Below, piece by piece: positions 3,199 through 21,208 of a DNA stretch of 36,474 nt. The DNA is from Bryobacteraceae bacterium (GTDB lineage: Bacteria; Acidobacteriota; Terriglobia; Bryobacterales; Bryobacteraceae), in contig JAIEPW010000112.1 in assembly GCA_019748195.1 (NCBI GenBank), positions 1 to 36,474 of the forward strand, given 5' to 3'. The first letter of the stretch is position 1, and each line of letters opens with the position of its first letter. The notes under the pieces are model-generated. The model searched no databases and was not told the origin of the DNA. It worked only from the letters and a program-made list of their open reading frames with translations. The position numbers and the translations under genes are program-made.

Positions 3199-5355
3199 TT
3201 AGCGGCGCAAGATCACTTTCGCCAGCCCGCTGTTCCCGGCCGCGTCCGTCACCCGCACCGCCACCACATGCTCGCCCGCGGCCAGTGCCTCGGGCTTCAC
3301 CAGGAACGACTCCCGCCGCTGGTCGACCACCCCGTCCGCCGCCTCCAGCATCACCCACGGGCCGGCGTCCACCGAGTACTCGGCTTTTCGCAGCGGAGAA
3401 GCAGCATCGGACGCCTCCACCGCGATTTCCATGCCCTTGAGCGCCGCCACCACCACCGGCGGCGTATTGTCGATCACCACCGGCGCGCTGATCACCTCCG
3501 ACTCCCGAGCCTGCGACGCCGGATTCGCGGGCGCATCGGACGCCACCACGCGGAACCAGTAACGGCCGTCGGCCAGCGAATCCGCGTCCAAGGTGACCGA
3601 GTTCTCCGCGATCGCCGTCTTCAGCGTCTTCCATTCCTGCTCGCCTTCGCCCCGCGCCGCCAGCGTAAAGCTGAGCTTGTCGCCGTCGGGATCGTCGGCC
3701 TGCCAGGTAATCTGCAACTGGGAAGAGCCGGAGCGCGCCACCGTCTGCTGCGAAGCGCCCGCCGGCGTGGACGCCTCGCCGGTGTCCGTGACGGTGATGG
3801 TGTAGGCCGCCGTGCCGGACGCGGGGGCGGCCGGCTTGGCCGCGGCGGCCGCCGCCGCCGACGTCACAGTGACCGCGCGAGCCACCGGAGGCGTGTTCTG
3901 CGGCAGGTAGGACAGCGTCACGCCGCCGACTTCCGAGCCGCCCCGCAGCTCCGCCTGCCACTGCAGGAATCGCGCATTGGGACTGGCGACGCGCCCGTCC
4001 TTCAGTTCCGCCCACTCGCTCCAGGTGGCATCCGGACGGGCGGAGTTGCCGCTGCGCGTTCTCAACCGCACTGCGCCGGCCCCGCGCAGATCCAGAGCGC
4101 CCCAGCGCGCGATATTGTTTGCGTCATGCACGGGCGACGTGAACGTGCCGATCTCAGCCTCCGCGGGACCGATGCGCAGCACGCGGCCGAGATTCGAGGT
4201 CGCGGCGGTCAGGCCCTCGCTGGTTTCGAGCAGCCGGATCACCTCCCCTTCCTCGGTCTCGGCGAGCAGCGTGGTTTTGCGATCCGGACCCAGCCGGTAC
4301 ACGCGTCCTTGAACATCGGTGGCGAACGAAAGTACGCCGCCCGACGCCAGCAGATCGTAGGCGTTTTCCTCCTTGGAGGTCCACAGCGTTTCCACCGTGT
4401 TGTCGGGCTGGATGCGGTAGATGGCGGATTTCTCCACGCCGGCGACCTCGAAGGAACTGGTAACCACAGCCGCGGGCGTCACCGCCGCTGCTTTCGTCCC
4501 GTCCGGCTTGGGAGCGCCGGGAACGCCCGCCTGCGCCTCGGATACCGTGATGGAGGTTCCCGGGCTGGAGACGGTGGTGGTGCTGATAGTCGCGGCGGCA
4601 GCCGCCGCCGCCCCGGCGCGTTTGGCCACGGAGCCGCCCATCGCCGCCGCATAGACCGCACCGCCGGGACCCGCGACAATGGCCCGGATCTCGGGCAGGT
4701 TCGCGTCATACAGCACGAAGGCCTTGTCCTTCGCGGTGATGCGGTACAGAATGCCGTTGGGTTCGCTGCCGGCCAGCAGGCGCCCTTGCCCGTCGAACGC
4801 CAGCGCCGTGACATGCGACTGCTGCGTGTCGTAGTAAACCTCGCCCTGCCCCGCCGCGGTGACGCGGTGAATTTTCGCCGGGTCGCCGGAGGCGGCGTAC
4901 AACGCGTTGTCGGGCCCGAACGCAAGCGCCCAGACGTATTTCGATTGCGGATCGAAGTACAGTTCCGCTTTGCCGTTTTCAATGCGATAGATCTTGCTGT
5001 CGGGAGCCGTTGCGGCGAACACGGCGTCACCCCGCACGGCCACGGCGAAGATTTCTGGCTGGGTGGAGGTCCACAGGATCGACGCCTTGCCGGCGGGATC
5101 GATTTTGTACAGCCGTCCGCGATGTCCGGTGCCGAGGTACAGGGACCCGTCGCCGCCGCGCGCCACGCTCCACACCTGCGGCTCATCGGAGGCAAACAGC
5201 ACCGAGACCTTGGGCGCGAGCGTCAGCCGCCCGTCGCGCGAAACCGCCACGCCCTTCATGCGGCCGCGAAGGAAGTCGGTGTAGGACGCGAGTTCCCAGG
5301 TCTGGGTGGAGGCCGACCACGCCAGCCCCCCGATCAGCAACAGGCTCAGTTTCAT
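3199..5355 (-). CDS. Secreted beta-propeller protein with Fn3/Ig-like C-terminal domains
   Basis: A 718-aa exported protein. It has a signal sequence (MKLSLLLIGGLAWSAS), then six or more propeller blades of the form GDGSLYLGTGHRGRLYKID and GPDNALYAASGDPAKIHRV through residues ~60-420. An Ala-rich/Thr-rich linker (around residues 245-275, written by a GCC/GCG run) interrupts the propeller. The C-terminal third has IDNTPPVV and QNTPPVARAV junctions and DDPDGDKLSF/DGRYWFRV segments, typical of Fn3 or cadherin-like beta-sandwich domains in bacterial surface proteins. The ATG at 5353-5355 overlaps the stop of the S55 peptidase (ATGA, 5352-5355), so the two are translationally coupled and probably work together outside the inner membrane. 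No enzyme motif is visible. Confidence 0.8.
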   Translation of the reverse strand: MKLSLLLIGGLAWSASTQTWELASYTDFLRGRMKGVAVSRDGRLTLAPKVSVLFASDEPQVWSVARGGDGSLYLGTGHRGRLYKIDPAGKASILWTSTQPEIFAVAVRGDAVFAATAPDSKIYRIENGKAELYFDPQSKYVWALAFGPDNALYAASGDPAKIHRVTAAGQGEVYYDTQQSHVTALAFDGQGRLLAGSEPNGILYRITAKDKAFVLYDANLPEIRAIVAGPGGAVYAAAMGGSVAKRAGAAAAAAATISTTTVSSPGTSITVSEAQAGVPGAPKPDGTKAAAVTPAAVVTSSFEVAGVEKSAIYRIQPDNTVETLWTSKEENAYDLLASGGVLSFATDVQGRVYRLGPDRKTTLLAETEEGEVIRLLETSEGLTAATSNLGRVLRIGPAEAEIGTFTSPVHDANNIARWGALDLRGAGAVRLRTRSGNSARPDATWSEWAELKDGRVASPNARFLQWQAELRGGSEVGGVTLSYLPQNTPPVARAVTVTSAAAAAAAKPAAPASGTAAYTITVTDTGEASTPAGASQQTVARSGSSQLQITWQADDPDGDKLSFTLAARGEGEQEWKTLKTAIAENSVTLDADSLADGRYWFRVVASDAPANPASQARESEVISAPVVIDNTPPVVVAALKGMEIAVEASDAASPLRKAEYSVDAGPWVMLEAADGVVDQRRESFLVKPEALAAGEHVVAVRVTDAAGNSGLAKVILRR

Positions 5356-7103
5356 TCTCGGATTTCCAGTTGAATGGTCTTGCTTCCGGCCACCGCGCCG
5401 CTGCCGGGATTCAGATCGAACTCGCGGATCTTCGACCCCCGCCAGGCCAACTGCGCGCCCTGCGAAGTCTGCTGCCGGCCGAGGATCAACGCGGCGGAAG
5501 GAGGCGGATCGGGCAGTTCCCTGCCCTGCACCGGATAGCCCGGCTCCGGACGCCACAGCGTCACGTAGGCTTTGTCGTTGGGGCGCAGGCGCTCCAGCAG
5601 CGACAGCACGTCGCCCGCCGTGTTGGGGGGCGAGGCGATGGCCGGCTGCAGATCCACGAAATTGGTGTAGCCGGCGTCGGCGGCGGTGATGAACACCAGG
5701 CCCGGCGATGCGCCCTCCGGGATCCGATAACGGATCTTGCGCGTGCTCTCGGCGCCGTTTTCGCCGGTCAACGCGACCCCGATCTCCACTTCCTCGCCGG
5801 GACGCGCGCGCCGCTGCGAGGTCCAGAGACGATCGATCTGCCACAGCTTCTTGCGCTCCACGGCTTCGGCCTCGATATGGATACTCTTCAGTTGCAGAGC
5901 CTCGAATCCGCTTTGCAGGGCATAGCCAAGGGGCATGGCGGCGCCGAGGGAGGCGATCAGGGGCAGGTTCGAATCTCCGGTAAAAAAGTTGCCGATCTGC
6001 AAGGGCTTCGTGCCGCCCTCGAACTCCACCGTGCCGCGCAGGGAAACGCTGGAAGCGCCCACCAGACGCTCGGTTCCGTCCAACGCCGAGAAGATGGCCA
6101 TTTGCACCAGCAACGGCGCGAGCACGGGGTCGCGGATCAGCTCCATCCGGTAGCTCCTGGGGCCGCCCTCGCCCTTCACGGCAATGGTTAGGGGGGCCAG
6201 GCGGGACTTCCGCCCCAGCTCGCCGGCGATGGCGGCATTGCGGTCCTGGGTGATGGTTCCCAACCATTCCTTGGCCGAGGAAATCTTGAAGGACGCGGTC
6301 AGGTTCGGCAGTAGGGTAATCACTTCGGCGCGCGCGAACGGCATTTCCGTGCCGCCCGCGGACAGGAAGCGATGTCCGAAGGCGTAGATCTGATTGCCGT
6401 CGATGTGGGTAACCGTGCCGTCGGCGCCCACCGCCATGTCGCCGGACATCAACTGGACGGAGATCATGGACCCAGGCTGCAGGGACTTGGGATCGCCGCC
6501 CGGGACTGCGCGGCCGGATGCCCCGGGTCCCTGGCGGGGCGAGAGTCCGGCGGAGCGGAGCGCCGGGCCGAACTGGTCCAGAGTGGCGGAAGTGAATCCG
6601 CTGAACGACATAGGGGTGGAAATCTCTACCATTCGTTCACCCCCGGCGGCGACCTCCAGGGGCCGCGACAGGGCGGCGGTCAAATCGACATTCCAGGGCG
6701 ATCGGGCGGCGCGGACGCGGCGCGGGAGCACGGGGGCGGTCTCCAGCATCTCCTCAATGGGGCGGATTCCCGCGATCGCTTCCTTGGCGAAAGGGAACGC
6801 CAGGGCTACAGCTCCAATCAGTTTGCCGCCGATATAAACAGGGCTGCCGCTCATTCCCTGCAGGACGCCGGTGTTTGCCAGGGGACCGCCGGACAGCCGG
6901 GCGAGGATCACGTTTTGCTTGGGGCCGAGGTTTTCGAGCACGCCGAGGATTTCGGCGTCGAAAGACTCGACTTGGCTTCCGGAAAAGACGGTCCTGCCGG
7001 TGCCCTTCATGCCGGGTCGGATTTCTCTGAGGGGAAGCGTGGCTTGCTGCGCTAGCAACGCCACGGCCGAAAGCAGTACTAGGACAGCCGGGCGGGGTGA
7101 CAC
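5352..7103 (-). CDS. SpoIVB-type S55 serine peptidase domain protein
   Basis: A 583-aa exported protein starting with GTG (7101-7103) and a hydrophobic signal (residues ~5-20). It contains the S55 nucleophile motif GMSGSP at residues 83-88 (Ser87 expected as nucleophile), preceded by RPGMKGTGRTVF and followed by GGKLIGAV and an AGIRPIEEML segment. A second region has YAFGHRF (His244), then SFKIS and WLGTITQDRNAAIAGELG, which resembles the part of SpoIVB around its catalytic His. In SpoIVB the His segment precedes the Ser segment; here the order is reversed. The C-terminal ~250 residues are beta-rich and unassigned. SpoIVB signals in sporulation by regulated proteolysis, but nothing here suggests sporulation, so substrate and role are unknown. 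An AAAGG lies very close to the GTG, so the exact start is uncertain. Confidence 0.8.
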   Translation of the reverse strand: MSPRPAVLVLLSAVALLAQQATLPLREIRPGMKGTGRTVFSGSQVESFDAEILGVLENLGPKQNVILARLSGGPLANTGVLQGMSGSPVYIGGKLIGAVALAFPFAKEAIAGIRPIEEMLETAPVLPRRVRAARSPWNVDLTAALSRPLEVAAGGERMVEISTPMSFSGFTSATLDQFGPALRSAGLSPRQGPGASGRAVPGGDPKSLQPGSMISVQLMSGDMAVGADGTVTHIDGNQIYAFGHRFLSAGGTEMPFARAEVITLLPNLTASFKISSAKEWLGTITQDRNAAIAGELGRKSRLAPLTIAVKGEGGPRSYRMELIRDPVLAPLLVQMAIFSALDGTERLVGASSVSLRGTVEFEGGTKPLQIGNFFTGDSNLPLIASLGAAMPLGYALQSGFEALQLKSIHIEAEAVERKKLWQIDRLWTSQRRARPGEEVEIGVALTGENGAESTRKIRYRIPEGASPGLVFITAADAGYTNFVDLQPAIASPPNTAGDVLSLLERLRPNDKAYVTLWRPEPGYPVQGRELPDPPPSAALILGRQQTSQGAQLAWRGSKIREFDLNPGSGAVAGSKTIQLEIRE

Positions 7104-7183
7104 ACCTTTATTGTAAGCTTTAAGTGGATCTTCCAGGCTATTGCCGGTCCGGATTAGAACCAGTTAAGGTTGGGGGAAAGAGC

Positions 7184-8083
7184 ATGGCCTCCATTGCCAA
7201 CAAACTACCCGAATCGGCGGCTTCGCCGGAAACGCGAGCATTCCCTTGGACATCGGTGGCGTGGTTCCTTGCGCTGGTCGCGCTTTGCTACGCTCCCATG
7301 CTGCAGCGGCTGGCGCTGCAGTGGAGCACCGACGAGGATGTCGGACACGGATTCTTCGTCCCCGTGGTCGCGGCGTACATCGCCTGGCAGCGCCGGGACG
7401 AACTGCTGGCGCGGCGGTGGACGCCGAGCTACTGGGGCATTCCGCTGATCCTGTGGGGAGCGTTTCAAAGCTGGGTGGGAACGCTGGGCGCGGAGCTCTT
7501 TTTGCAAAGAACAGCGATCCTGTTCACGCTGGCCGGCATCGTGACCGCCATCGGCGGTTTCGCGCTGCTGCGGGCGCTGAGTTTTCCGCTCGCGCTGCTG
7601 ATCTTCATGGTTCCGATTCCGGCGGTGATCTACGGGCAGATCACGCTGCCGTTGCAGCTTTTCGCGAGTTCGGTGGCGGAGACCTCGCTGAACCTGATCG
7701 GGATCCCCGTGATCCGGGACGGAAACGTGCTGGAGCTGCCAAGCCAGAAGCTTTCCGTGGTGGAGGCCTGCAGCGGCATCCGCAGCCTGCTCTCGCTGTC
7801 GTTCCTGTCGCTGGTCTACGCCTACTTCTTCGATAAGAAAGTGTGGATGCGCGGCGCGCTGCTGGTGGCGACGGTGCCGATTGCCATCATCGCCAACGCG
7901 GGACGCGTGACCATTACCGGGGTGCTCAGCGAGTACAGTCCGGACCTGGCCAAAGGCGTGTTCCATGAACTCGAGGGCTGGGTGATTTTCGTCGTGGCGC
8001 TGCTCATGCTGGTGCTGACGCACCAGGTGATCAACCGCTTGTGGACGCGATTCGGGAAGGAGAAACCTGGTGCAGTTTCCGCG
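7184..8083 (+). CDS. Exosortase (transpeptidase-like membrane protease of PEP-CTERM sorting)
   Basis: An integral membrane protein of 300 aa with about eight hydrophobic helices. It carries the full exosortase/archaeosortase triad: Cys196 in VEACSGIRS, Arg241 in NAGRV and His261 in FHELEGW. The family cleaves substrates bearing a C-terminal PEP-CTERM or related tripartite signal during export of surface proteins, often with exopolysaccharide synthesis. The ATG at 7184 follows a GGGGGAAAG Shine-Dalgarno-like sequence (7172-7180); the frame is open upstream to 7124 but that lacks a ribosome site. The stop (TAG, 8084-8086) lies inside the first codons of epsI, an overlap of 17 bp. No exopolysaccharide glycosyltransferases and no convincing PEP-CTERM substrate lie in the window. 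Confidence 0.93.
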
Positions 8084-8741: not shown

Positions 8742-9782
8742 ATGAGACCGCTATGCCTTGCATTTCTGACAATCGCCATTCTGGCGGAATCCACGAGCGC
8801 GCAGCAGCGGGCGCCGGAAACGGCGCCGCCGCAGCGGGCCGCGGGCATGCCCGATCCGGACGCCATGCGCCAGGATCAGGTGGTGAAGGACATCGACGAC
8901 GTGATGTGGCACCTGAAGCTGGGCGACATCGCGCACGTGGATAAGGTCCGCTACACCAGCCTTCCGCCGGCGCGGATCACCAATCCGAACGCGCCCGGGG
9001 CGAAAAACCCGCTGATCATCTCCGCCTATACGTTCATTCCCAAAAACCTGGACCGGTCGAAGAAGCACCCGCTGATCGTATTCACGCACGGCGGCGTGCA
9101 TTCGAACTTCGGCACCTCCTACGCGAACATCGTGCGGGAACTGGTGGAGCAGGGCTATTCGATTGTCGCCACCGATTACCGCGGCTCGACCGGCTACGGC
9201 GCGGGGTTCTGGATGCAGATCGACTACGGCGGACGGGAGGTGGACGACGTCGATGCCGGGCGCGCCTGGATGCTGGAGAATCACCCCTTCCTCGATCCCA
9301 AGCGTGTGGGCGCCATCGGCTGGAGCCATGGAGGCATGATCAGCCTGCTGAACATCTTCGAGCGTCCCGACAGCTACGCCGTCTGCTACGCGGGCGTCCC
9401 CGTCAGCGATCTGGTGGCGCGGCTCGGCTACCAGAGCGAATCGTACCGCGCGTTATACTCCGCGCCGTATCACATCGGCAAAACGGTGCGGGAAGACATT
9501 CAGGAGTATCTGAAGCGCTCGCCCATGACCCATGTCGCCAAGCTGCGGACTCCGCTGCTGATCCACACCACCACCAACGACGAGGATGTGAACTTTCTGG
9601 AAGTCCAGCGGCTGATTCAGGCGTTGAAGGCGGAAGGCAAGCAGTTCGAGCACAAGATCTACCAGGATGCGCCGGGCGGGCACGCGTTCAACCGGCTGGA
9701 CACGAAGCTGGCCAAGGAATCGCGCGCGGAGATCTGGCGGTTCCTGAACCGGTACCTGAAGCCGGAACGCGGCATCCAGTAG
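8742..9782 (+). CDS. Secreted S9-type (prolyl oligopeptidase-like) alpha/beta hydrolase
   Basis: A 346-aa protein with a signal peptide (residues 1-20, probable cleavage after STSA) and an alpha/beta-hydrolase fold. The nucleophile elbow is GWSHGG (Ser195), the oxyanion region is FTHGGVHSNFG (115-124), TDYRGSTGYG is the S9 signature upstream of the elbow, Asp280/Asp282 lies in TTTNDEDVNF and His314 in GGHAFN. This matches the catalytic domain of S9 dipeptidyl/acylaminoacyl peptidases without their propeller domain, so the substrate may be a small peptide or ester. It follows epsI by 30 bp and its ribosome site is in a hairpin. It lies in the exosortase operon by position; a functional link is unproven. 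Confidence 0.88.
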   Translation: MRPLCLAFLTIAILAESTSAQQRAPETAPPQRAAGMPDPDAMRQDQVVKDIDDVMWHLKLGDIAHVDKVRYTSLPPARITNPNAPGAKNPLIISAYTFIPKNLDRSKKHPLIVFTHGGVHSNFGTSYANIVRELVEQGYSIVATDYRGSTGYGAGFWMQIDYGGREVDDVDAGRAWMLENHPFLDPKRVGAIGWSHGGMISLLNIFERPDSYAVCYAGVPVSDLVARLGYQSESYRALYSAPYHIGKTVREDIQEYLKRSPMTHVAKLRTPLLIHTTTNDEDVNFLEVQRLIQALKAEGKQFEHKIYQDAPGGHAFNRLDTKLAKESRAEIWRFLNRYLKPERGIQ

Positions 9783-12968: not shown

Positions 12969-13598
12969 TCAACGTGCCGACGAGCTATACAAGCTGAGCA
13001 CGAAGAACAGGATCAGCCACAGGATGCCCATCACGTGCCAGTACCAGGAGATCACCGCCAGCGTCTCGCGCCTCCGCGGCAACAGCGGACTGCGGGTCCG
13101 GTACAGAAGCCAGGCCAGCGCCGCCAATCCTCCCATCAGGTGCAGGCCGTGGCCGCCCGTGAACACGTAATAGAACGAAGCGTGGGGATTCGAGTCCATG
13201 AACGCGCCCTGGGCGAACAGTTGCCGCCAGGAGAGCGTTTGCAGGACCAGGAATACGATCCCGAGCGCCGCGGTGAACATCATCCAGCGCTGGAACATAG
13301 AGTGCCGCCCCTTGCGATAGAGCCGGTGGGCGGTCTCCATGGTCAGGCTGCTGAGCGCGATCACCGCGCTGGACCAGAGCATCAGGCTGGGCAGGGTCAC
13401 GGGCTGCCAGAAGGCCTGGTTCTGGGCGCGCCACAGGAAGGCGACGATCAGCGCGGCGAAAGTCGTGAGAAGGTACCCGAAGAAACACAGCAGGAAGATC
13501 CAGAACAGCCCGCGAGGCCGGCGAGGTTCCTCCAGCGACGAGGGCATCACCACCATGTGGCCAGTCTTACCGATACGAGTGCTGAGTAGGTCAGACAT
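12969..13598 (-). CDS. Haem-copper oxidase subunit III family membrane protein
   Basis: A 209-aa protein with five hydrophobic helices. Family features are a SLTMETAHRLYR segment, a HASFYYVFTGGHGLHLMGG segment with His residues and a final WHVMGILWLILFFVLSLY helix, as in cytochrome c / quinol oxidase subunit III. Subunit III stabilises the catalytic core and holds no redox centre. No subunit I, II or IV gene lies beside it, so this copy is orphaned or belongs to an enzyme encoded elsewhere (NO reductase-associated NorE-like proteins are also in this family). Start ATG at 13596-13598; an internal ATG at 13556 is an alternative and neither has a strong ribosome site. Confidence 0.85.
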   Translation of the reverse strand: MSDLLSTRIGKTGHMVVMPSSLEEPRRPRGLFWIFLLCFFGYLLTTFAALIVAFLWRAQNQAFWQPVTLPSLMLWSSAVIALSSLTMETAHRLYRKGRHSMFQRWMMFTAALGIVFLVLQTLSWRQLFAQGAFMDSNPHASFYYVFTGGHGLHLMGGLAALAWLLYRTRSPLLPRRRETLAVISWYWHVMGILWLILFFVLSLYSSSAR

Positions 13599-13614
13599 AA
13601 AGTACTGCTAACAA

Positions 13615-14412
13615 CTATTGTCTCTGGTTTGGGCCGCGCGCGGCTTTCTTGTCCAGGCCGGCGAGGCGGCGGAGGGAGGCGAGTTCGCCTCCGGCCAGCT
13701 CGCGAAACTTGCCGATCTCAAGCTCGCCGATCCCGATCGGTCCGATGCGGGTGCGAACCAGTTTCAGCACCTTGGCGCCCACCGCCTCCACCATGCGCCG
13801 AACCTGCCGGTTGCGTCCCTCGGTAATCACGAGTTCGAAGTGCGTGTATTTGCCCGAATCCCGGAGCCGGGTCACGATTGCCGGGCGGGTGAGACCGTCG
13901 GAGAGCTCCACGCCTTTCGCCAGTCGATCCAGTTGCTGGTCCGAAAGCAGGGTGGACGCTTTCACCAGATACGTCTTGGGGATCTTGTAATCCGGATTGG
14001 TCAGACGCTCGCCGAGTTGGGTGTCGTTGGTGAGCAGAAGCAGGCCGCTGGTGTCCTGGTCCAGGCGGCCGATGGGCGACACGAACTGGTCGACCCCGGA
14101 GAGCAGGTCGTAGACGGTGGGGCGGCCTTCCGGGTCCTTGTAGGTAGTGAGGAATCCCTTGGGCTTATATAGCAGGTAGTAGACCTTCTCCTGCGCTTCC
14201 AACGGTTTGCCGTCGAACAGGACTTTGTCGCGATGGAAATCGATCCACTGGTCGGGGTTCTCGGTGCGGCGTCCGTTGACGGTGACGCGGCCGGCGTGGA
14301 TCCAGCTTCTCGCTTCGCCGCGGGAGCCGAGGCCGGCCTTGGAGAGCACGCGTTCCAGGGTTTTTTGCTGCCGCGGCGGTTTGCGGGAGTCCTTCAATCC
14401 TCTATGATGCAC
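13615..14412 (-). CDS. S4-domain rRNA pseudouridine synthase (RsuA/RluB/RluE/RluF family)
   Basis: About 265 aa. An N-terminal S4 RNA-binding domain (LERVLSKAGLGSRGEARSWI then GRVTVNG, residues ~19-47) is followed by the synthase domain with YKPKGFLTT, the catalytic motif GRLDQDTSGLLLLTND (Asp118) and the late GRNRQVRRM motif. The order and lengths match the RluB/RsuA group, which convert a uridine of 23S or 16S rRNA to pseudouridine; which site cannot be decided. The start is uncertain: GTG at 14412, TTG at 14397 and TTG at 14463 are in frame, and the gene diverges from ftcD whose ATG is at 14417, so 14412 or 14397 is preferred to avoid overlap. It lies 16 bp downstream of the subunit III gene. 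Confidence 0.9.
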   Translation of the reverse strand: MHHRGLKDSRKPPRQQKTLERVLSKAGLGSRGEARSWIHAGRVTVNGRRTENPDQWIDFHRDKVLFDGKPLEAQEKVYYLLYKPKGFLTTYKDPEGRPTVYDLLSGVDQFVSPIGRLDQDTSGLLLLTNDTQLGERLTNPDYKIPKTYLVKASTLLSDQQLDRLAKGVELSDGLTRPAIVTRLRDSGKYTHFELVITEGRNRQVRRMVEAVGAKVLKLVRTRIGPIGIGELEIGKFRELAGGELASLRRLAGLDKKAARGPNQRQ

Positions 14413-14416
14413 AGGA

Positions 14417-15313
14417 ATGATCGAGTGCGTTCCAAATTTCTCGGAAGGACGGGACCTCCGCAAGGTGGAAGCGATTGTGGAGGCGATCCGGGCGACTCCG
14501 GGAGTCTTGCTGCTCGGCTGGGAGGCGGATCGGGATCACAACCGGGCGGTGGTGACCTTCGCGGGCGATCCGGAAAGCGTGCTGGCGGCGGCGGTTCAGG
14601 GGGCGGGCAAAGCGGCGGAATGGATCGACTTGCGGTCGCACCAGGGAGTGCATCCAAGAGTGGGAGCGGCGGATGTGATTCCCTTCGTTCCGCTCGAAGG
14701 ATCGGACCTGGCCGAGTGCGCGGCGGTGGCGCATCGCGCCGGAGCGGCGATCTGGGACAAGTGGCGCGTTCCGGTTTTCTTTTACGAAGCGGCGGCGCGG
14801 ACGCCGGAGCGGCGGCGGCTGGAGAAGGTGCGGCGGAAGGGATTTGAGCAACTGCTCGGAGATGTAGCCTCGCACATTCCGGATGTCGGAGGCGCGCGGG
14901 TGCATCCCACCGCGGGGGCCAGTTGCGTGGGCGCGCGCGACTTCCTGGTGGCGTTCAACATCGACCTGGAAACCGCGGATGCCGCCGTGGCGCGCGCCAT
15001 CGCGGCGAGAATCCGCGAGTCGTCCGGGGGGTTCCCGTTCGTCAAGGCCATGGGGCTGTACCTGCCGTCGCGAGGCTGCGCGCAGGTGTCGATGAACCTG
15101 ACGCGCTTTCGCGAGATCCCGGTGGAGCAAGTGTATGAGGCGGTTCAGGCGGAGGCGGCGCGGCTGGGAACGGCGATCCGCGGGCCCGAACTGATCGGGC
15201 TGATCCCCAACGCCGCCTACGAAATGGCGCCGGAATTCTACCAGCGGGTTCGCAACTTCGGGCCGGAGCGCATCATCGAAAGGCAGATCGCCGGCCTCAG
15301 GCTATACTCGTAA
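14417..15313 (+). CDS. ftcD: Glutamate formimidoyltransferase
   Basis: A 298-aa enzyme beginning MIECVPNFSEGRD, the typical N-terminus of the formiminotransferase domain. Further motifs are DRDHNRAVVTF, HQGVHPRVGAADVIPFVPL (catalytic His region), FYEAA and CVGARDFLVAFNIDL, then MGLYLPSRG and QVSMNLT. It transfers the formimino group from N-formimino-glutamate (a histidine breakdown product) to tetrahydrofolate. The cyclodeaminase half found in bifunctional animal FtcD is absent, as in many bacteria. No other hut genes are in the window. It opens an apparent four-gene operon; the next start is 4 bp after its stop. An AGGA touches the ATG, so the ribosome site is poorly spaced. Confidence 0.93.
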   Translation: MIECVPNFSEGRDLRKVEAIVEAIRATPGVLLLGWEADRDHNRAVVTFAGDPESVLAAAVQGAGKAAEWIDLRSHQGVHPRVGAADVIPFVPLEGSDLAECAAVAHRAGAAIWDKWRVPVFFYEAAARTPERRRLEKVRRKGFEQLLGDVASHIPDVGGARVHPTAGASCVGARDFLVAFNIDLETADAAVARAIAARIRESSGGFPFVKAMGLYLPSRGCAQVSMNLTRFREIPVEQVYEAVQAEAARLGTAIRGPELIGLIPNAAYEMAPEFYQRVRNFGPERIIERQIAGLRLYS

Positions 15314-16592: not shown

Positions 16593-18127
16593 AAACCTGG
16601 AAACTTACGATCGAATACGACGGCTCCAAGTACCACGGATGGCAGGAGCAACTGAATGCGCCGCGGACGGTGCAGGGCGCGCTGCGCGACGCGGCTGAGG
16701 ATTACCTGCGGGAAGGGGTGGATATTCAGGGCGCGGGCCGCACGGACGCGGGGGTTCACGCCCTGGGTCAGGTGGCGCATCTGAAAATCCGTGGAACCCG
16801 TGATGTGAATCCGGAGCGGCTGCTGCGGGAGCTGAATGACCGGCTTCCGGCGGATATCGCGGTGCTGGAGGCCGAAGAGACGCCGAACGCGTTCCACGCG
16901 CGGCATCACGCGGTGAACCGCGCGTACCTGTACCAGATCTCGACGCGGAAAACCGCGCTTTCGAAGAAGTTCGTGTGGTGGGTGAAGGAGCCGTTGAATG
17001 TAGATCTGATGTCGCGCGGGGCGGCGATGCTCGCCGGGCGGCACGATTTCGTTTGCTTCCGGCAGAAGGACCCCGCGCGAGCCGACGAGTCGACCATCGT
17101 GGTGGTGGATCGGGCGGAGGTGGATACCGACGACCACCTGGTGCTGTTCCGGGTGGAGGCGTCGCATTTCCTATGGAAGATGGTGCGGCGGCTGGCCGGA
17201 ACGCTGGTGAAGCTGGGCCTGGGCGAGATTACGCTCGGGGAGTTCGAGCAGTTGGTGGAAGGAAAGTGCGATCCCAAGCTCGACGTGGGCGCGTGGACCG
17301 CGCCGGCATCAGGTTTATTCCTGGAGGGCGTGAGCTATCCGGCGTCCGGAGAGGAACTGCCGCCGGCGCCGGCGGGCGAGGAGGAAGGGACATTCCGCAG
17401 GACGCGGGTTCCCGAACCCGGGCCTCGCGAGGAGCGGCGGCCCGGCCGGCGGCCGGTCACGGTGACGCAGGAGAGCGAAGACGAAGGCGGGACGCGGGTG
17501 TGGCGGGACGCGCCGCTGCCGAAGCGGGAGGGGCGGCCGGAGGAACGGCGTCCGGTTCGCGGCGGCGGCCGGGGCGAACCGCGCACCGGGCCGGGCGATC
17601 GCGACCGGCCTCGCGGACCGCGCACCGGGCCTCCGGATCGGCGCGACGAGGGTCGTCCGGCGAAACGGCCGGCTTACGGAAAGGGTCCCGAGGACCGGCG
17701 CGGACCGGTGCGGCCGACACTATCTCCGCGTCCGCCGCGTCCGCCCGAGGATGGCGGTCCAGAGCGGCCGCGCTATGGCAAGGGCCCGAGCTTCGGCGAT
17801 CGCCCGGTGCGGAAGCGGGGACCGGAAGGCCCGCGGACCGGCGATCGCGGCGGATATGGAGACCGCCCGCCCCGTTCCGGAAGCGACCGTCCGCAACGCG
17901 GCGGCTACGGAGATCGTCCCCCCCGCGGCGGAGGGGATCGGCCGGGCTATGGCGACCGGCCGAAACGAGGACCGGCGGGTCCCGGTTCGGGGCGGCCACC
18001 GGCGAAGCGTGGACCGGGTGGTCCGGGTGCGGGGCGGCCTCCGGGAAGGCCCGGGCCGGGGAAGCGAGGTCCGGAGAAACGCGGTCCAGGTAAGCGGGGT
18101 CCGGGAGGACCTCCGCGCGGAAGGTGA
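16589..18127 (+). CDS. truA: tRNA pseudouridine(38-40) synthase TruA with long disordered tail
   Basis: A 512-aa protein. Residues 1-250 are a complete TruA: IEYDGSKYHGWQ, the catalytic GRTDAGVHALGQV (Asp53), FHARHHAVNRAYLYQI, and HFLWKMVRRLAGTLVKLG. TruA makes pseudouridine at positions 38-40 of tRNA anticodon stems. Residues ~251-512 are a low-complexity tail rich in Arg, Pro, Gly, Lys and Asp, with repeated units such as RGGYGDRPPR, GPGKRGP and RPAYGKGP-like pieces, and no predicted fold. Normal bacterial TruA is ~245-270 aa, so the tail doubles it. TTG start at 16589 overlaps the antiporter stop; the GTG of the zinc-ribbon gene overlaps its stop (18124-18127). The tail may bind RNA or drive condensation (inference). 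Confidence 0.93.
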   Translation: MKTWKLTIEYDGSKYHGWQEQLNAPRTVQGALRDAAEDYLREGVDIQGAGRTDAGVHALGQVAHLKIRGTRDVNPERLLRELNDRLPADIAVLEAEETPNAFHARHHAVNRAYLYQISTRKTALSKKFVWWVKEPLNVDLMSRGAAMLAGRHDFVCFRQKDPARADESTIVVVDRAEVDTDDHLVLFRVEASHFLWKMVRRLAGTLVKLGLGEITLGEFEQLVEGKCDPKLDVGAWTAPASGLFLEGVSYPASGEELPPAPAGEEEGTFRRTRVPEPGPREERRPGRRPVTVTQESEDEGGTRVWRDAPLPKREGRPEERRPVRGGGRGEPRTGPGDRDRPRGPRTGPPDRRDEGRPAKRPAYGKGPEDRRGPVRPTLSPRPPRPPEDGGPERPRYGKGPSFGDRPVRKRGPEGPRTGDRGGYGDRPPRSGSDRPQRGGYGDRPPRGGGDRPGYGDRPKRGPAGPGSGRPPAKRGPGGPGAGRPPGRPGPGKRGPEKRGPGKRGPGGPPRGR

Positions 18128-19155
18128 TCAGCCGTTTTCCCTGCCCCGGCTGCGGAGCATCGCTGGTGTTCGATCCCGGCGTCGCGAAGTTGCGGTGCCC
18201 CTATTGCGGGTCCACCGCCGAAATCGGCTCGGAAGCGACGGCGCACATCGAGGAACTGCCCTTCGAGCAGTTTGCCGCGCGCGATCTGGATCTGGTGAAG
18301 CTATCGCCGACGGCGCTTGAGGTCGCCTGCGGGAGCTGCGGATCGGTGACGGAATTCGAGCCTCGGGACGCGGCGGCCGCCTGCCCTTTCTGCGCCGCGC
18401 CGATGGTGATGCAGCCCAAGGCAGCGGATCCCCTGATCGCGCCGGCGTGCGTGCTTCCGTTCGGGATCGAGAAGCGCCAGGCGGACGGGCGGGTGCAATC
18501 CTGGATCGGCGGGCTGTGGTTCGCGCCGAACGATCTGAAGGCGCTGGCGCGGCGCCAGGGCATGACCGGCGTCTACTTGCCGTACTGGACGTTCGACGCG
18601 CGGACCGCGACAGAATGGGTGGGGGAGCGCGGGGAGGTCTACCGCGATCGCAATAACCAGCCGCAGATCCGATGGTCGCGGCGGGAAGGGACGCTGCACC
18701 TGGATGTGGACGACGCGCTGATGCCGGCAACCACGGCGGTGCAGCGCAATTACCTGCACGCGCTGGATCCGTGGCCGCTGGAAAGCATGAAGCCGTACGA
18801 GCCCGCGTACCTGGCAGGCTTCCGGGCGCAGCGTTACCAGATTCCGCTTCCGCAGGCCTGGAACATGACCGGGCAAGAGGTAATCCGGCCGATGATCGAG
18901 GATCAGGTGCGGCGGCAGATCGGCGGGGATCAGCAGCGGGTGCGGGAGTTGAACACGACTTATTCCGACGTGACGTTCAAGCACATCCTGCTGCCGGTGT
19001 GGATCGGCGCTTACCGGTACCAGAGCCGGGTGTATCAGATCGTGGTGAACGCGCAAACGGGCGAAGTGCAGGGGGAGCGTCCGTGGAGTGCAGTGAAGGT
19101 GGCGCTCGCGATTCTGGTTGCTTTGATAGTGTTTTACTTCTTCTGGCGGAATTAG
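18124..19155 (+). CDS. Zinc-ribbon membrane-anchored protein
   Basis: A 343-aa protein with two zinc-ribbon modules at the N-terminus: CPGCG with CPYCG (residues ~7-29) and CGSCG with CPFCA (~71-97). A long middle region contains YLPYWTFDARTATEW, then LLPVWIGAYRYQSRVYQIVVNAQTGEVQGE, and a single C-terminal membrane helix (ALAILVALIVFYFFW). Similar proteins occur widely, often mislabelled as helicase-like or primosomal; function is unknown. Start is GTG overlapping the truA stop. Its last 52 codons are duplicated at 20566-20723. Its stop TAG (19153-19155) overlaps the stop of the GNAT-tail remnant on the opposite strand. Confidence 0.85.
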   Translation: MISRFPCPGCGASLVFDPGVAKLRCPYCGSTAEIGSEATAHIEELPFEQFAARDLDLVKLSPTALEVACGSCGSVTEFEPRDAAAACPFCAAPMVMQPKAADPLIAPACVLPFGIEKRQADGRVQSWIGGLWFAPNDLKALARRQGMTGVYLPYWTFDARTATEWVGERGEVYRDRNNQPQIRWSRREGTLHLDVDDALMPATTAVQRNYLHALDPWPLESMKPYEPAYLAGFRAQRYQIPLPQAWNMTGQEVIRPMIEDQVRRQIGGDQQRVRELNTTYSDVTFKHILLPVWIGAYRYQSRVYQIVVNAQTGEVQGERPWSAVKVALAILVALIVFYFFWRN

Positions 19156-19220
19156 GCCCGGGTCAATTCCTTGTAGAAGACGACCGTATCCTCGAATTCA
19201 CCCGCCGCGGAGCGGCAGAA
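18998..19220. repeat. Left copy of a 223-bp diverged direct repeat (zinc-ribbon 3' end + GNAT 3' end)
   Basis: Aligns without gaps to 20566-20788 at a constant offset of 1568 bp, with about 23 mismatches in 223 positions as I count them. It is continuous with the intact zinc-ribbon gene and ends inside a GNAT-tail remnant. Nearly all differences fall at third codon positions of the two genes that meet here. In the zinc-ribbon part two amino acids differ (A/T and F/L); in the GNAT part one differs (T/A). Confidence 0.9.
19152..19220 (-). pseudogene. GNAT acetyltransferase C-terminal remnant
   Basis: Reads FCRSAAGEFEDTVVFYKEL then TRA and stop TAA on the minus strand, the last 22 residues of the GNAT protein encoded intact at 20720-21208 with one substitution. 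Upstream of it on the minus strand the reading does not match the acetyltransferase and no gene continues, so only the tail is present. It was not under selection as a separate gene, yet its changes are nearly all synonymous. Confidence 0.8.
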
Positions 19221-19269
19221 CCTCAAACTGGTCCTTTCGATGTTTCATGTCTATTTTGTGTTTTTATGC

Positions 19270-19298
19270 TTGACACCTACTGGTGGTTATGGTAACGT
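19270..19298 (+). promoter_or_regulatory. Candidate sigma-70 promoter of the cysteine-rich cassette
   Basis: A perfect TTGACA (19270-19275), a 17-bp spacer and TAACGT (19293-19298), which matches TATAAT at three positions. It sits in an AT-rich stretch 98 bp upstream of the first cassette gene. Consensus matching only; no transcription start is known. Confidence 0.4.
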
Positions 19299-19395
19299 CG
19301 CAGCGAGATGAACAGCATGTTGTTTTGCTGTTTCGGATGACCCTTCAGATCGCCGTCCAGCCGGACGACGAACACCGAATTCAGGAGGTAGAAAT

Positions 19396-19755
19396 ATGCG
19401 AAGCACAATCCTCCTCGTATTGGCTGTGCTCCTCGGCGCAGGTGTCGCTTATGCCCAGTGGTGCTACAGCTGGGGCGATCTCCGAGGCTTTAGAGCGACC
19501 TGTGAGCGTATTTGGGACGAGCAGTGCGGCGCTTACGGTGCAAACGTTTGGTGTCAGGTGTGCGTGTGTGCTGATAATCCCTCCTGCGGCCACACCGGTG
19601 GCCTCAGCCAATATTGTGTGGACGCGTGGAACATGTGCACAAATTGTGGTGCCGGAACCTACTGTGCGCCTGATTCACCGAGGAGGAAACTATGTTACGG
19701 AGATCAGGATACCTTGCTTTCGGTTTCGTTGTCGCATTCTTGCTGGGGGTCTTAG
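19396..19755 (+). CDS. Small secreted cysteine-rich protein
   Basis: A 119-aa protein with a clean signal peptide (MRSTILLVLAVLLGAGVAYA, cleavage likely before Gln21) and a mature part with 13 cysteines: residues 23, 36, 44, 53, 56, 58, 64, 74, 81, 84, 90, 100 and 116. Trp and Tyr are also frequent. The spacing (WCQVCVC, MCTNC) would suit disulfide cross-linking outside the cytoplasm or metal binding. It matches no family I recognise. A strong AGGAGGT (19383-19389) precedes the ATG. The last ~21 codons overlap the next gene in another frame, with the next gene's AGGAGG inside this one, so the original C-terminus may have been nearer residue 98 and a frameshift is possible. Confidence 0.7.
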   Translation: MRSTILLVLAVLLGAGVAYAQWCYSWGDLRGFRATCERIWDEQCGAYGANVWCQVCVCADNPSCGHTGGLSQYCVDAWNMCTNCGAGTYCAPDSPRRKLCYGDQDTLLSVSLSHSCWGS

Positions 19756-20468
19756 GCTTTCACACCCTTGCTCCGAATGTCCGGGCTTCTGACATTATTC
19801 CATTCTCCACAACTTGGCGCACCACCGCTTACGATACGGGGGGGGGCGTCAGACTCGTTCAAACCGGATCAATGTCGCGCCGTAGCGATGGCTCGGAGGT
19901 GATGGTCCGAAACGTACAGCGGCCGGACCAGAATGGAGTAATGTCCCAACGGAACATCATGGATTTTCGTACCAAACAGGAAATTTCGATAGATGAGTTG
20001 ACGGAGTCAACATCGACGGTGCCCATCCCTGAATCGCAATTAGCTGGGTACCAACAAGCGTCCAAATGCGGGAAGTCTCCAGTGGAACGCGAGAAACTGT
20101 TGGGCTATCAAGTAGTCCATATCGCAAAGGACTACGTTCACGGAGACAACACGACCCGCATCGAGGAATGGCAATCACCATCCTTGAGCTGCTACGCTTT
20201 AAAACGAGTAGTTTACCGCCGATCGCAGGATGGTAAGCGGGAAGCAAGAACTGTAACCGAGGTAACGAGTATTGCAGAGGGGGATCCCGCTCCTCAACTC
20301 TTCGAAGTACCATCCAACTATGTTGAGCGAGCACCATCGGCCGTTCGAGACGAATTGAACCGGCGTTATCCAGGCCTCCCGTGCCCTACTTGTCTGCAAA
20401 ATGGCCTTCGGCAGGCGGATTCCGTCTACCATGAACGCCGTAGCCGGGCGGGGTGGGTGGACCGATAG
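19692..20468 (+). CDS. Exported or membrane-anchored protein of unknown function, cassette gene 2
   Basis: A 258-aa protein with an N-terminal hydrophobic signal/anchor (residues ~6-27, GYLAFGFVVAFLLGVLGF) and a beta-rich exported region. Segments include TAYDTGGGVRLVQTGSMSRRSDGS, IMDFRTKQE, a KCGKSPVE patch, WQSPSLSCYALKRVVY and a C-terminal LPCPTCLQNG, giving four cysteines outside. I do not recognise the family; WQSP-x-L-x-C followed by a YRRS strand recurs in uncharacterised soil-bacterial proteins as I remember them. A GAGGAGGAAAC ribosome site sits just before the ATG. It overlaps the cysteine-rich gene by 64 bp and codon use is less G+C-biased than its neighbours. The pair probably act together outside the inner membrane. 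Confidence 0.75.
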   Translation: MLRRSGYLAFGFVVAFLLGVLGFHTLAPNVRASDIIPFSTTWRTTAYDTGGGVRLVQTGSMSRRSDGSEVMVRNVQRPDQNGVMSQRNIMDFRTKQEISIDELTESTSTVPIPESQLAGYQQASKCGKSPVEREKLLGYQVVHIAKDYVHGDNTTRIEEWQSPSLSCYALKRVVYRRSQDGKREARTVTEVTSIAEGDPAPQLFEVPSNYVERAPSAVRDELNRRYPGLPCPTCLQNGLRQADSVYHERRSRAGWVDR

Positions 20469-20477
20469 AGCGAACTT

Positions 20478-20515
20478 GGATGCGCCCATGCATCAATGAG
20501 CGCATCCTTTCTCCT
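20478..20515 (+). terminator. Terminator-like hairpin at the end of the cassette
   Basis: GGATGCGC (20478-20485) pairs perfectly with GCGCATCC (20500-20507) around a 14-nt loop, followed by TTTCTCCT. It begins 10 bp after the stop of the second cassette gene. The stem is short and the T-run weak, so efficiency is uncertain. Confidence 0.4.
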
Positions 20516-20565
20516 CAGTTAGGCAGTCTAAGAGGGGGATTATGTTGAGCAGGTGCTAATTTCGC

Positions 20566-20723
20566 TGTGGATCGGCACCTACCGCTATCAGAGCCGGGTG
20601 TATCAGATCGTGGTGAACGCGCAGACGGGAGAAGTGCAGGGGGAGCGTCCCTGGAGCGCGGTGAAGGTCGCGCTGGCGATTCTAGTCGCTTTGATCGTGT
20701 TTTACTTCCTCTGGCGAAACTAG
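20566..20723 (+). pseudogene. Zinc-ribbon protein C-terminal remnant
   Basis: Encodes the last ~52 residues of the zinc-ribbon protein, from WIGTYRYQSRVYQIVVNAQ to the membrane helix and stop TAG, with two amino-acid differences from the intact gene at 18124-19155. Upstream the frame meets a stop at 20529-20531; the few residues between (VEQVLISL) may be a more diverged continuation. No start or zinc ribbons are present, so it cannot make the protein. Confidence 0.8.
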
Positions 20724-20788
20724 GCGCGGGCCAATTCCTTGTAGAAGACCACGGTGTCCTCGAACTCACCCGCCGCGGAGCGGCAGAA
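20566..20788. repeat. Right copy of the 223-bp diverged direct repeat
   Basis: Partner of 18998-19220. It contains a zinc-ribbon 3' remnant and the 3' end of the intact GNAT gene, meeting in overlapping stop codons (CTAG, 20720-20723), the same arrangement as in the left copy (TTAG). This copy is continuous with the complete acetyltransferase gene. Confidence 0.9.
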
Positions 20789-21208
20789 GCGCGGGATGAC
20801 GCCGGCTTCGGTCCAGCCGAGCCTGCGGTACATCGATTCCGCGAGATCGCCGCGCTTGGTGTCCAAAACCAGCAAGGTGCGGCCGAGTTCGAGCGCCCAG
20901 TCCTCGACAGCGTTCATCAGGGCGCGGCCGATGCCCTGCCCTCGCGCGGAGCGCAGCACCAGCAGCTTCTGCACTTCAGCCCGATGAGGCGCATTGGGCT
21001 TCCAGGCGAGTTCGAGTTGGACGGAGCCGACGAGGCGTCCGTCGAGGAACGCGCCCAGGATTTCGCGCCCGCGCCAGAAGTCCACCGCGACTTCATGGGA
21101 AAGAGGCGGCAGGAAGCCGATGGAGGCTCCACTTTCCGCGGCGTCGATGAGCAGCCGGGCGAGATCGTCCAAATGATCGCCGGTGGAGATGCGCCGGATC
21201 TCGAGCAT
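20720..21208 (-). CDS. GNAT family N-acetyltransferase
   Basis: A 162-aa protein with a complete GNAT fold: an N-terminal IRRISTGD strand and LARLLIDAAESGASIGF helix, a LVGSVQLEL strand, VQKLLVLRSARGQGIGRAL (motif A, acetyl-CoA pyrophosphate loop R-x-x-G-x-G/A) and a TLLVLDTKRGDLAESMYRRLGW motif B. It transfers an acetyl group from acetyl-CoA to an unknown amine; the GASIGFL region recalls small-molecule acetyltransferases acting on antibiotics or polyamines, with no specificity readable. ATG at 21206-21208. It diverges from the DinB-like gene with only 26 bp between start codons. The C-terminal 22 codons are duplicated at 19152-19220. Confidence 0.9.
   Translation of the reverse strand: MLEIRRISTGDHLDDLARLLIDAAESGASIGFLPPLSHEVAVDFWRGREILGAFLDGRLVGSVQLELAWKPNAPHRAEVQKLLVLRSARGQGIGRALMNAVEDWALELGRTLLVLDTKRGDLAESMYRRLGWTEAGVIPRFCRSAAGEFEDTVVFYKELARA

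Follow-up and report, generated by a model that had tools for sequence, protein, structure and literature searches.

A cassette between diverged copies of a gene junction in a Bryobacteraceae genome and similar flanking repeats around its relatives

In the window, a stretch of 36,474 nucleotides from a Bryobacteraceae bacterium (contig JAIEPW010000112.1), two convergent genes encoding a zinc-ribbon protein and a GNAT acetyltransferase have their 3′ ends present on both sides of a small cassette. The two copies of this junction differ mostly by synonymous changes, and flanking direct repeats recur around relatives of the cassette in other genomes. Import is the probable origin: a mobile cassette would have been taken up together with the gene end of a relative, via one-sided homologous recombination or a single crossover of a circularised fragment.

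Anatomy of the duplicated gene junction and its cassette

Pairwise comparison confirmed an ungapped direct repeat of 223 bp and about 90% identity, which the initial annotation had placed here. The copies, at an offset of 1568, have 23 differences (89.7% identity), and their longest exact match is 35 bp. The region is composed of the following features:

18124–19155, plus strand: zinc-ribbon gene, 343 aa, intact, 3′ end within repeat copy 1 (Pfam below cut-off; relatives)
18998–19220, no strand assigned: repeat copy 1, zinc-ribbon gene end and GNAT remnant (pairwise repeat comparison)
19152–19220, minus strand: GNAT 3′ remnant within repeat copy 1, 66 coding nt and stop codon
19221–20565, no strand assigned: inserted cassette, 1345 bp (G+C count)
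19396–19755, plus strand: ORF1, 119 aa, Cys-rich, signal-peptide-like start (by eye); no Pfam, NCBIfam or PADLOC match
19692–20468, plus strand: ORF2, 258 aa, N-terminal stretch hydrophobic as judged by eye; belongs to a family with no Pfam match (alignment A1)
20566–20788, no strand assigned: repeat copy 2, zinc-ribbon remnant and GNAT gene end (pairwise repeat comparison)
20566–20723, plus strand: zinc-ribbon 3′ remnant within repeat copy 2, 155 coding nt and stop codon
20720–21208, minus strand: GNAT acetyltransferase gene, 162 aa, intact, 3′ end within repeat copy 2 (PF00583, E 1e-15)

As remnants, repeat copy 1 contains the final 69 bases of the GNAT gene and repeat copy 2 the final 158 bases of the zinc-ribbon gene, each including the stop codon. 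Neither remnant contains an internal stop. Both genes flanking the cassette are full-length open frames, and their shared end is duplicated with no coupled deletion. The zinc-ribbon protein yielded zinc-ribbon Pfam matches, every one under the curated cut-off, and has five relatives in the bacterial family with 44–54% amino acid identity. When the entire window was compared with itself using a low-complexity filter and E values up to 1e-6, no other direct repeats of at least 75 bp spanning less than 4 kb appeared. Between positions 17000 and 23000, the next longest direct-repeat family measures 42 nt and is located within a G+C-rich repetitive stretch.

The low G+C content ascribed to the cassette was borne out (53.6% compared to 64.4% for the window). 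Searches of Pfam, NCBIfam and PADLOC with ORF1 and ORF2 returned nothing convincing, and neither ORF matched a recombinase in the Pfam search. Judging from its sequence, the ORF1 product is probably secreted. Solved structures searched with an ORF2 profile gave nothing convincing, and the ORF2 structure predicted without an alignment had a mean pLDDT of 41, too low for a structure search. Among 237 genomes of the bacterial family, the cassette DNA matched the window's own genome and none of the other 236. The window ORF2 had no match in plasmids and five pattern matches, none of them a relative, in viral contigs. The related ORF2 of locus L168 had no match in phages, and that of locus L144 none in plasmids.

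Codon pattern of the diverged copies

In the zinc-ribbon part of the repeat, 15 of 17 differences are synonymous and none falls on codon position 2, and in the GNAT part five of six are synonymous. The total of 20 synonymous changes out of 23 compares to approximately nine predicted under in-place duplication and decay (P 2.2e-6). Both the earlier observation that almost all changes are at third positions even in the remnants and the earlier rejection of an in-place tandem duplication are in agreement with this codon test. As silent changes prevail in copies that each consist partly of dead remnant sequence, the pattern supports the view, already put forward in the initial annotation, that the copies diverged while the genes were intact, in two lineages, and came together later. 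The same signature was found at L144. The window copies differ along their whole length, and a crossover point is not visible in them. A search of the family genomes, among which the window's own was the sole member of its genus, revealed no relative close enough for a tree of the junction and neither a donor allele nor an empty-site strain for the window, for which we infer donor, transfer direction and joining mechanism.

At L144 (genome G158), relatives of ORF1 and ORF2 lie between 743-bp repeats of a TauE gene. In contrast to the window copies, which differ throughout, this repeat passes internally from identical to diverged: the first 525 bp are identical and the last 218 bp carry every difference. 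Of the coding differences 21 out of 23 are synonymous, which rejects in-place decay (P 2.6e-6). Such a mosaic would result from replacement of the cassette-side part alone by the allele of a relative. Congeners of G158, considered as donors of the allele, were only about 68–74% identical at the TauE gene.

Flanking repeats and mobility of the ORF2 family

The ORF2 family is present in 71 of the 237 genomes. From 126 places, 31 were excluded from the rate as the DNA to one side was shorter than 2 kb. Direct repeats span 10 of the 95 remaining testable places compared to a single one of the 577 pseudo-places taken from these loci (P 2e-8); the pseudo-places were positioned more than 2.5 kb from ORF2, which is a weakness of this control, and the repeat criterion was fixed after the first hits were known. 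Leaving out the window, 9 of 94 places are spanned (P 1.3e-7), or 6 of 94 when only clear gene tails are counted (P 4e-5). The later sample by itself was not significant (1/40 versus 0/224, P 0.15). A freer count in the same loci yielded four more repeat pairs, with gaps of at least 600 bp (L128, L145, L169 and L272); these compare to 10 spanned ORF2 places (11 rows), whereas position alone would predict spanning in about 13%. Since the L128 repeat, which is of a similar sort, encloses a different gene, the tie of the scar to the ORF2 family may not be exclusive.

At seven of the 10 spanned places the repeated sequence consists of a neighbouring gene's 3′ tail. Repeats of these clear cases are 116–743 bp long, the target genes differ, the inserts comprise 0.8–2.1 kb, and in five of the seven the repeat ends 0–5 nt past the stop codon. 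Three loci that satisfy the repeat criterion were left out of the clear gene tails: the frames of L170 are unclear, L179 rather resembles a decaying second transporter-like copy, and the L186 repeat stops short of a stop codon.

No significant synonymous excess was observed at L129 (18/36), L160 (9/15) and L179 (4/16) under a half-model null. At L160, the left copy is diverged in the part remote from the cassette, opposite to the arrangement at L144. The repeats of L168 (138 bp), L171 (116 bp) and L279 (129 bp) contain a single mismatch each, synonymous in L168 and a replacement in the other two, so that these repeats may equally well have arisen by duplication during insertion. Beyond its cassette, the L168 insert includes 803 bp that repeat, in inverted orientation and with 96% identity, a portion of a nearby FAD-oxidoreductase gene and terminate at the right-hand joint. 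This copy would fit DNA imported from a relative but does not prove it.

Genome comparison indicates that the ORF2-family cassette moves. L191 and L194 are unscarred insertions, for which close relatives show empty sites; they lack a long tail duplication, and the two ORF2 units, 808 bp in length and located at unrelated sites, share 89% identity. Moreover, one ORF1/ORF2-type pair sits on an apparently circular plasmid-like contig. Tyrosine-recombinase sequences are no more than about 320 bp away from ORF2 in L163, L194 (a fragment with a Pfam match below cut-off) and L296; recombinase sequences like those of L163 or L194 adjoin ORF2 at these three of the 126 places only. Seven inserts displayed no terminal inverted repeat or common end motif clearly above shuffle level.

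Possible origins of the scars

According to the import model, the two-gene cassette (ORF1 and ORF2) would have arrived with the zinc-ribbon/GNAT gene end of a related lineage. One side would have been joined through homologous recombination inside the shared gene end, and the other without homology, either directly by homology-facilitated illegitimate recombination or through prior closure of the incoming fragment into a circle, which one crossover would then have integrated. The product would be an allelic partial duplication, in which each flanking gene is intact with one junction copy and the rest is a remnant.

Homology-facilitated illegitimate recombination is described in S. pneumoniae, Acinetobacter and P. 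stutzeri and was proposed for Vibrio T6SS immunity arrays (PMC5361080). The non-homologous joint of such products mostly has 3–10 bp of microhomology. The use of homology at one end alone would be shared with the present case, as would the import of foreign genes beside a conserved region. However, the experimental products generally show a deletion, whereas the outcome in this case is a partial duplication that includes a diverged allele, around relatives of one cassette. In E. coli conjugation, the single crossover of a circular molecule in which some of the homologous segment was missing resulted in duplication of the target-gene end in 56 of 60 clones by PCR, and 14 sequenced clones carried duplications of 109–950 bp (PMC3240628). 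This range covers the repeat lengths seen here, but the E. coli case concerns an engineered plasmid in the laboratory, while the present one is natural and includes a relative's allele at two loci. A single circle crossover demands that the homologous segment be directly duplicated on both sides of the insert, as is observed here. Alleles differing along the entire duplicated segment are present in the window and not at L144, where the identical 525 bp disfavour a plain single crossover of a circle unless conversion acted. Transformation-induced merodiploids of S. pneumoniae are likewise tandem duplications caused by imported DNA; in contrast to the scars, they are described as about 100 to 900 kb in size and use repeats already present in the chromosome (PMC3784515).

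A two-step origin, in which insertion duplicates the gene tail as identical copies and later allelic recombination replaces one copy wholly (window) or partly (L144), appears unlikely, albeit worth considering. The one-mismatch repeats of L168, L171 and L279 resemble young duplications, and partial replacement at a later stage is consistent with the mosaic at L144. Yet each diverged locus requires two events, and in the window the replacement must cover nearly all of the 223-bp copy. We know of no mechanism that duplicates 116–743 bp of a target in this way. In the e14 prophage in icd, a diverged element-borne copy replaces the 3′ end of the gene, and the original end lies at the far side. A similar integrative element, a circle with its own target-gene 3′ end that was served by a site-specific recombinase in trans and is now reduced to cargo, would produce the same anatomy, with the gene end made whole by the diverged copy of the element. 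Repeat ends close behind the stop codon and the recombinase sequences near ORF2 in L163, L194 and L296 are in line with such an element. We regard it as improbable, however, as the window cassette lacks a recombinase or integrase match, the small inserts share no end motif or inverted repeat, and both repeat lengths and target genes vary.

In-place duplication or a long target-site duplication with neutrally decaying remnants has very little probability. The flanking repeats do consist of host DNA, and L179 has the expected replacement excess (12 of 16 changes), but the codon pattern rejects this origin for the window and L144, and the window repeat is ungapped with remnants free of internal stops. 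A transposon with a long target-site duplication was dismissed, given repeats of no fixed short length and the lack of a terminal inverted repeat at seven inserts. A chimeric contig from two related organisms in one assembly also has very little probability. The genome consists of 154 contigs with 1.5% estimated contamination, but a chimera requires two independent false joints at non-homologous borders, and other genomes show similar flanking repeats. As the longest exact match is so short, confusion of the copies by a k-mer assembler also seems unlikely.

Similar scars around related inserts in other species suggest that these genes spread by untidy DNA uptake. More tentatively, this bacterial family, probably Bryobacteraceae, may carry an undescribed group of small mobile cassettes for a Cys-rich secreted protein and its partner. 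Lacking their own recombinase or end signals, they would insert directly after the stop codon of one unrelated gene or another and produce a second 3′ tail of that gene, in some cases a relative's allele, at the opposite end of the insert. This would be a distinct, recombinase-free route of mobility. One-sided recombination and integration of circularised fragments have so far been known mainly from laboratory crosses. If such a scar recurs in nature and preserves the two alleles next to each other, single genomes would reveal how accessory genes enter, how diverged the donor was and where crossovers took place. The finding also draws attention to mobile, probably secreted proteins that form an uncharacterised family in poorly studied bacteria.

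A duplicated gene junction around a low-G+C cassette

The window comprises the entire contig C95 of genome G000 (5.83 Mb, 154 contigs, 99.7% complete, 1.5% contamination), the sole genome of its genus in the set compared. As the initial annotation had described, the junction of two convergent genes is doubled in the form of an ungapped direct repeat of 223 bp, the copies differing at 23 positions (89.7% identity). The zinc-ribbon and GNAT genes meet inside this repeat with overlapping stop codons. Between the copies lie 1345 bp with a G+C content of 53.6%, compared with 64.4% for the window. This cassette carries two open reading frames, neither of which matched Pfam, NCBIfam or PADLOC.

Features of the duplicated junction and its cassette
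18124-19155, + strand: zinc-ribbon protein gene, convergent with the GNAT gene
20720-21208, - strand: GNAT acetyltransferase gene, convergent with the zinc-ribbon gene
18998-19220: repeat copy 1 of the gene junction
20566-20788: repeat copy 2 of the gene junction
ORF1 of the cassette: 119 aa, Cys-rich, signal-peptide-like start
ORF2 of the cassette: 258 aa, hydrophobic N-terminus

Synonymous changes account for 15 of the 17 differences in the zinc-ribbon part and for 5 of the 6 in the GNAT part, even though each copy includes a remnant, the dead partial end of a gene. Duplication in place followed by free drift of the dead parts served as null model. With a transition bias of 2 and a replacement rate of 1/10 for the copy still in function, both our own assumptions, it predicts 38% synonymous differences and gives a probability of 2.2e-6 for at least 20 of 23, and on this ground it is rejected for the window. 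The synonymous excess implies that divergence took place when selection still acted on both genes; this in turn places the divergence in different lineages and the joining of the copies later, in agreement with the initial annotation, which had also considered an in-place duplication inadequate. Third-position G+C does not single out a foreign copy in the window (0.849 in the upstream part of the zinc-ribbon gene, 0.745 and 0.804 in the tails of copies 1 and 2, which span just 51 codons).

Named relatives of the zinc-ribbon gene include Acidobacteria and Bryobacteraceae, and G000 is accordingly a probable member of the Bryobacteraceae. The junction DNA found matches in 10 of 101 genomes including its own, covering 22 to 150 of 271 bases in the others. 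In the five genomes with the best junction matches (1.7 to 8.6 kb of 3' DNA inspected), no GNAT gene was observed close to the zinc-ribbon gene, and the cassette DNA had no match among the 237 family genomes searched except in G000 itself.

Recurrence of flanking repeats in the ORF2 family

Of the 237 family genomes, 46 gave an ORF2 homologue in a single-sequence search (E 1e-3) and 71 in a profile search (E 1e-8). An alignment of 12 members contains 14 invariant columns, two of them cysteine. An ORF1-like gene, defined simply as one for 55-170 aa with 7 or more Cys and a hydrophobic start that lies no more than 700 bp upstream, was identified ahead of ORF2 in 27 of 126 places. AraC-type HTH genes lie near the cassette at two loci (L129:8601-8987 and L194:7244-7597), with a third, weaker similarity in L161.

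After repeats had been noticed around the ORF2 homologues of L129 and L144, we set as criterion a direct repeat of at least 75 bp whose two copies flank ORF2, with a span below 4 kb. Places with 2 kb of DNA on both sides of ORF2 were regarded as testable. The first sample consisted of all 72 places of the single-sequence search, the window included, and showed a repeat at 9 of 55 testable places versus 1 of 353 control positions in the same loci. Among 728 control positions in other loci two had a repeat, in both cases that of the window. A second sample of 54 new places, 50 of them from the family profile search and the remaining 4 from a different family within the order, yielded 1 of 40 versus 0 of 224 controls, which alone is not significant (P 0.15). 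Both samples together gave 10 of 95 versus 1 of 577 (P 2e-8), or 9 of 94 without the window (P 1.3e-7). Moreover, repeats were commoner where ORF1 was present (6/27 versus 4/99 places, P 0.007).

Two further repeats were observed. In L128, a 114-bp, 87% direct repeat (13540-13653 and 14905-15017) encloses another kind of ORF (13801-14763), the start of which is signal-like; the scar may therefore extend beyond the ORF2 family. A repeat of about 150 bp and 96% identity in L272 (6934-7084 and 8731-8884) begins 100 bp past an ORF1-ORF2 pair and nearly reaches the contig end.

Duplicated gene tails and mobile cassettes

The repeated sequence corresponds to the 3' tail of a gene adjoining the cassette at seven places: the window, L129, L144, L160, L168, L171 and L279. 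One copy is kept by the intact gene and the remnant lies on the far side. The repeats measure 116 to 743 bp and the target genes differ.

Duplicated gene tail by place
Window: zinc ribbon
L129: methyltransferase
L144: TauE exporter
L160: no Pfam match
L168: DinB-like
L279: glycosyltransferase-like

In five of the seven, the end of the left copy lies 0 to 5 nt past the stop codon (L168 and L279, 0; L144 and L171, 4; L129, 5); the distance is 41 nt in L160 and 65 nt in the window. L170, L179 and L186 also satisfy the repeat criterion, yet are not clear gene tails.

A single base differs between the copies of L168, L171 and L279. L144 is a mosaic of 525 identical bases followed by a 218-base stretch, where synonymous changes make up 21 of the 23 coding differences (P 2.6e-6). 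Under the half-model, neither L129 (18/36) nor L160 (9/15) reached significance; L179 (4/16) looks like ordinary decay. Judged by these codon patterns, firm evidence for a relative's allele is confined to the window and L144. Part of a nearby FAD-oxidoreductase gene also recurs within the L168 insert as an inverted copy of 803 bp with 96% identity (6710-7512 / 8972-9774); this copy stops at the right-hand joint, at the start of the repeated DinB tail. Of its 33 differences, 18 are synonymous. The pattern is consistent with DNA imported from a relative, which it does not prove.

Comparison of unscarred places indicates that the cassettes do move. An 808-bp ORF2 unit occurs with 89% identity at non-homologous sites of two related genomes, L191 (G156) and L194 (G157). 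At L191, G157 has 31 bp where G156 has 1177 bp, the left edge being common to G155; the L194 site is empty in both G155 and G156. The L194 insertion measures about 3.97 kb, has a 23-bp imperfect repeat at its borders and includes a 1.7-kb element (3803-5507) with further identical copies in G157; the long ORF of this element had no Pfam match. A tyrosine-recombinase-like fragment (L194:5611-5886; Pfam match below cut-off) follows this element beside ORF2. Both places lack a long tail duplication, and the scar is therefore one of several outcomes.

Furthermore, an ORF1-ORF2 pair resides on a 12.3-kb contig (L163; G053:C124, 1-12336) that is apparently circular and plasmid-like, as its ends are identical over 127 bp. 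It encodes RepA, ParA, a ParE toxin, an rve-type transposase, an ORF without Pfam match (4814-5551) and two tyrosine recombinases, one on each side of the pair. A gene 43% identical to one of these recombinases and open over the matched stretch (L296:6898-7812, - strand) sits 288 bp from an ORF2 homologue.

Possible origin of the scar

Insertion by a transposon or an integrase is a weak explanation, because the seven inserts showed neither a terminal inverted repeat nor a common end motif clearly above shuffle level and the window's cassette contains no recombinase recognisable by Pfam. The anatomy could be explained by two known routes. In homology-facilitated illegitimate recombination, a linear fragment undergoes homologous recombination at one of its ends, and the opposite end is joined with no homology involved (PMC3240628, PMC5361080); a relative's fragment would have entered in this way. 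Alternatively, a single crossover would have occurred with a circular molecule lacking part of the homologous segment. The latter is the authors' account of an E. coli conjugation experiment, in which the segment was most likely lost by linearisation, partial degradation and re-circularisation. In that experiment, 56 of 60 clones had a sign of target gene end duplication, and the duplications in 14 sequenced clones (109 to 950 bp) encompass the range of the present repeats (PMC3240628). L144 fits one-sided joining of a fragment better, because, barring conversion, a crossover with a circle would leave copies that differ from end to end. Both routes fit the window alike and are indistinguishable there.

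Gene duplications, transposases and XerD genes have been reported for the Candidatus Solibacter genome, and the portions of that paper considered contain nothing on gene-tail duplications around inserts (PMC3174227). A limited search of open-licence literature found no description of a gene-tail scar of this kind in these bacteria. The recombination routes are already known; what appears to be new is a natural, recurring scar around one undescribed cassette family, with allele-keeping at two loci. The enrichment in this family could be explained by a fast turnover, through gain and loss, of a protein pair that is probably secreted, and equally by a dedicated mechanism.
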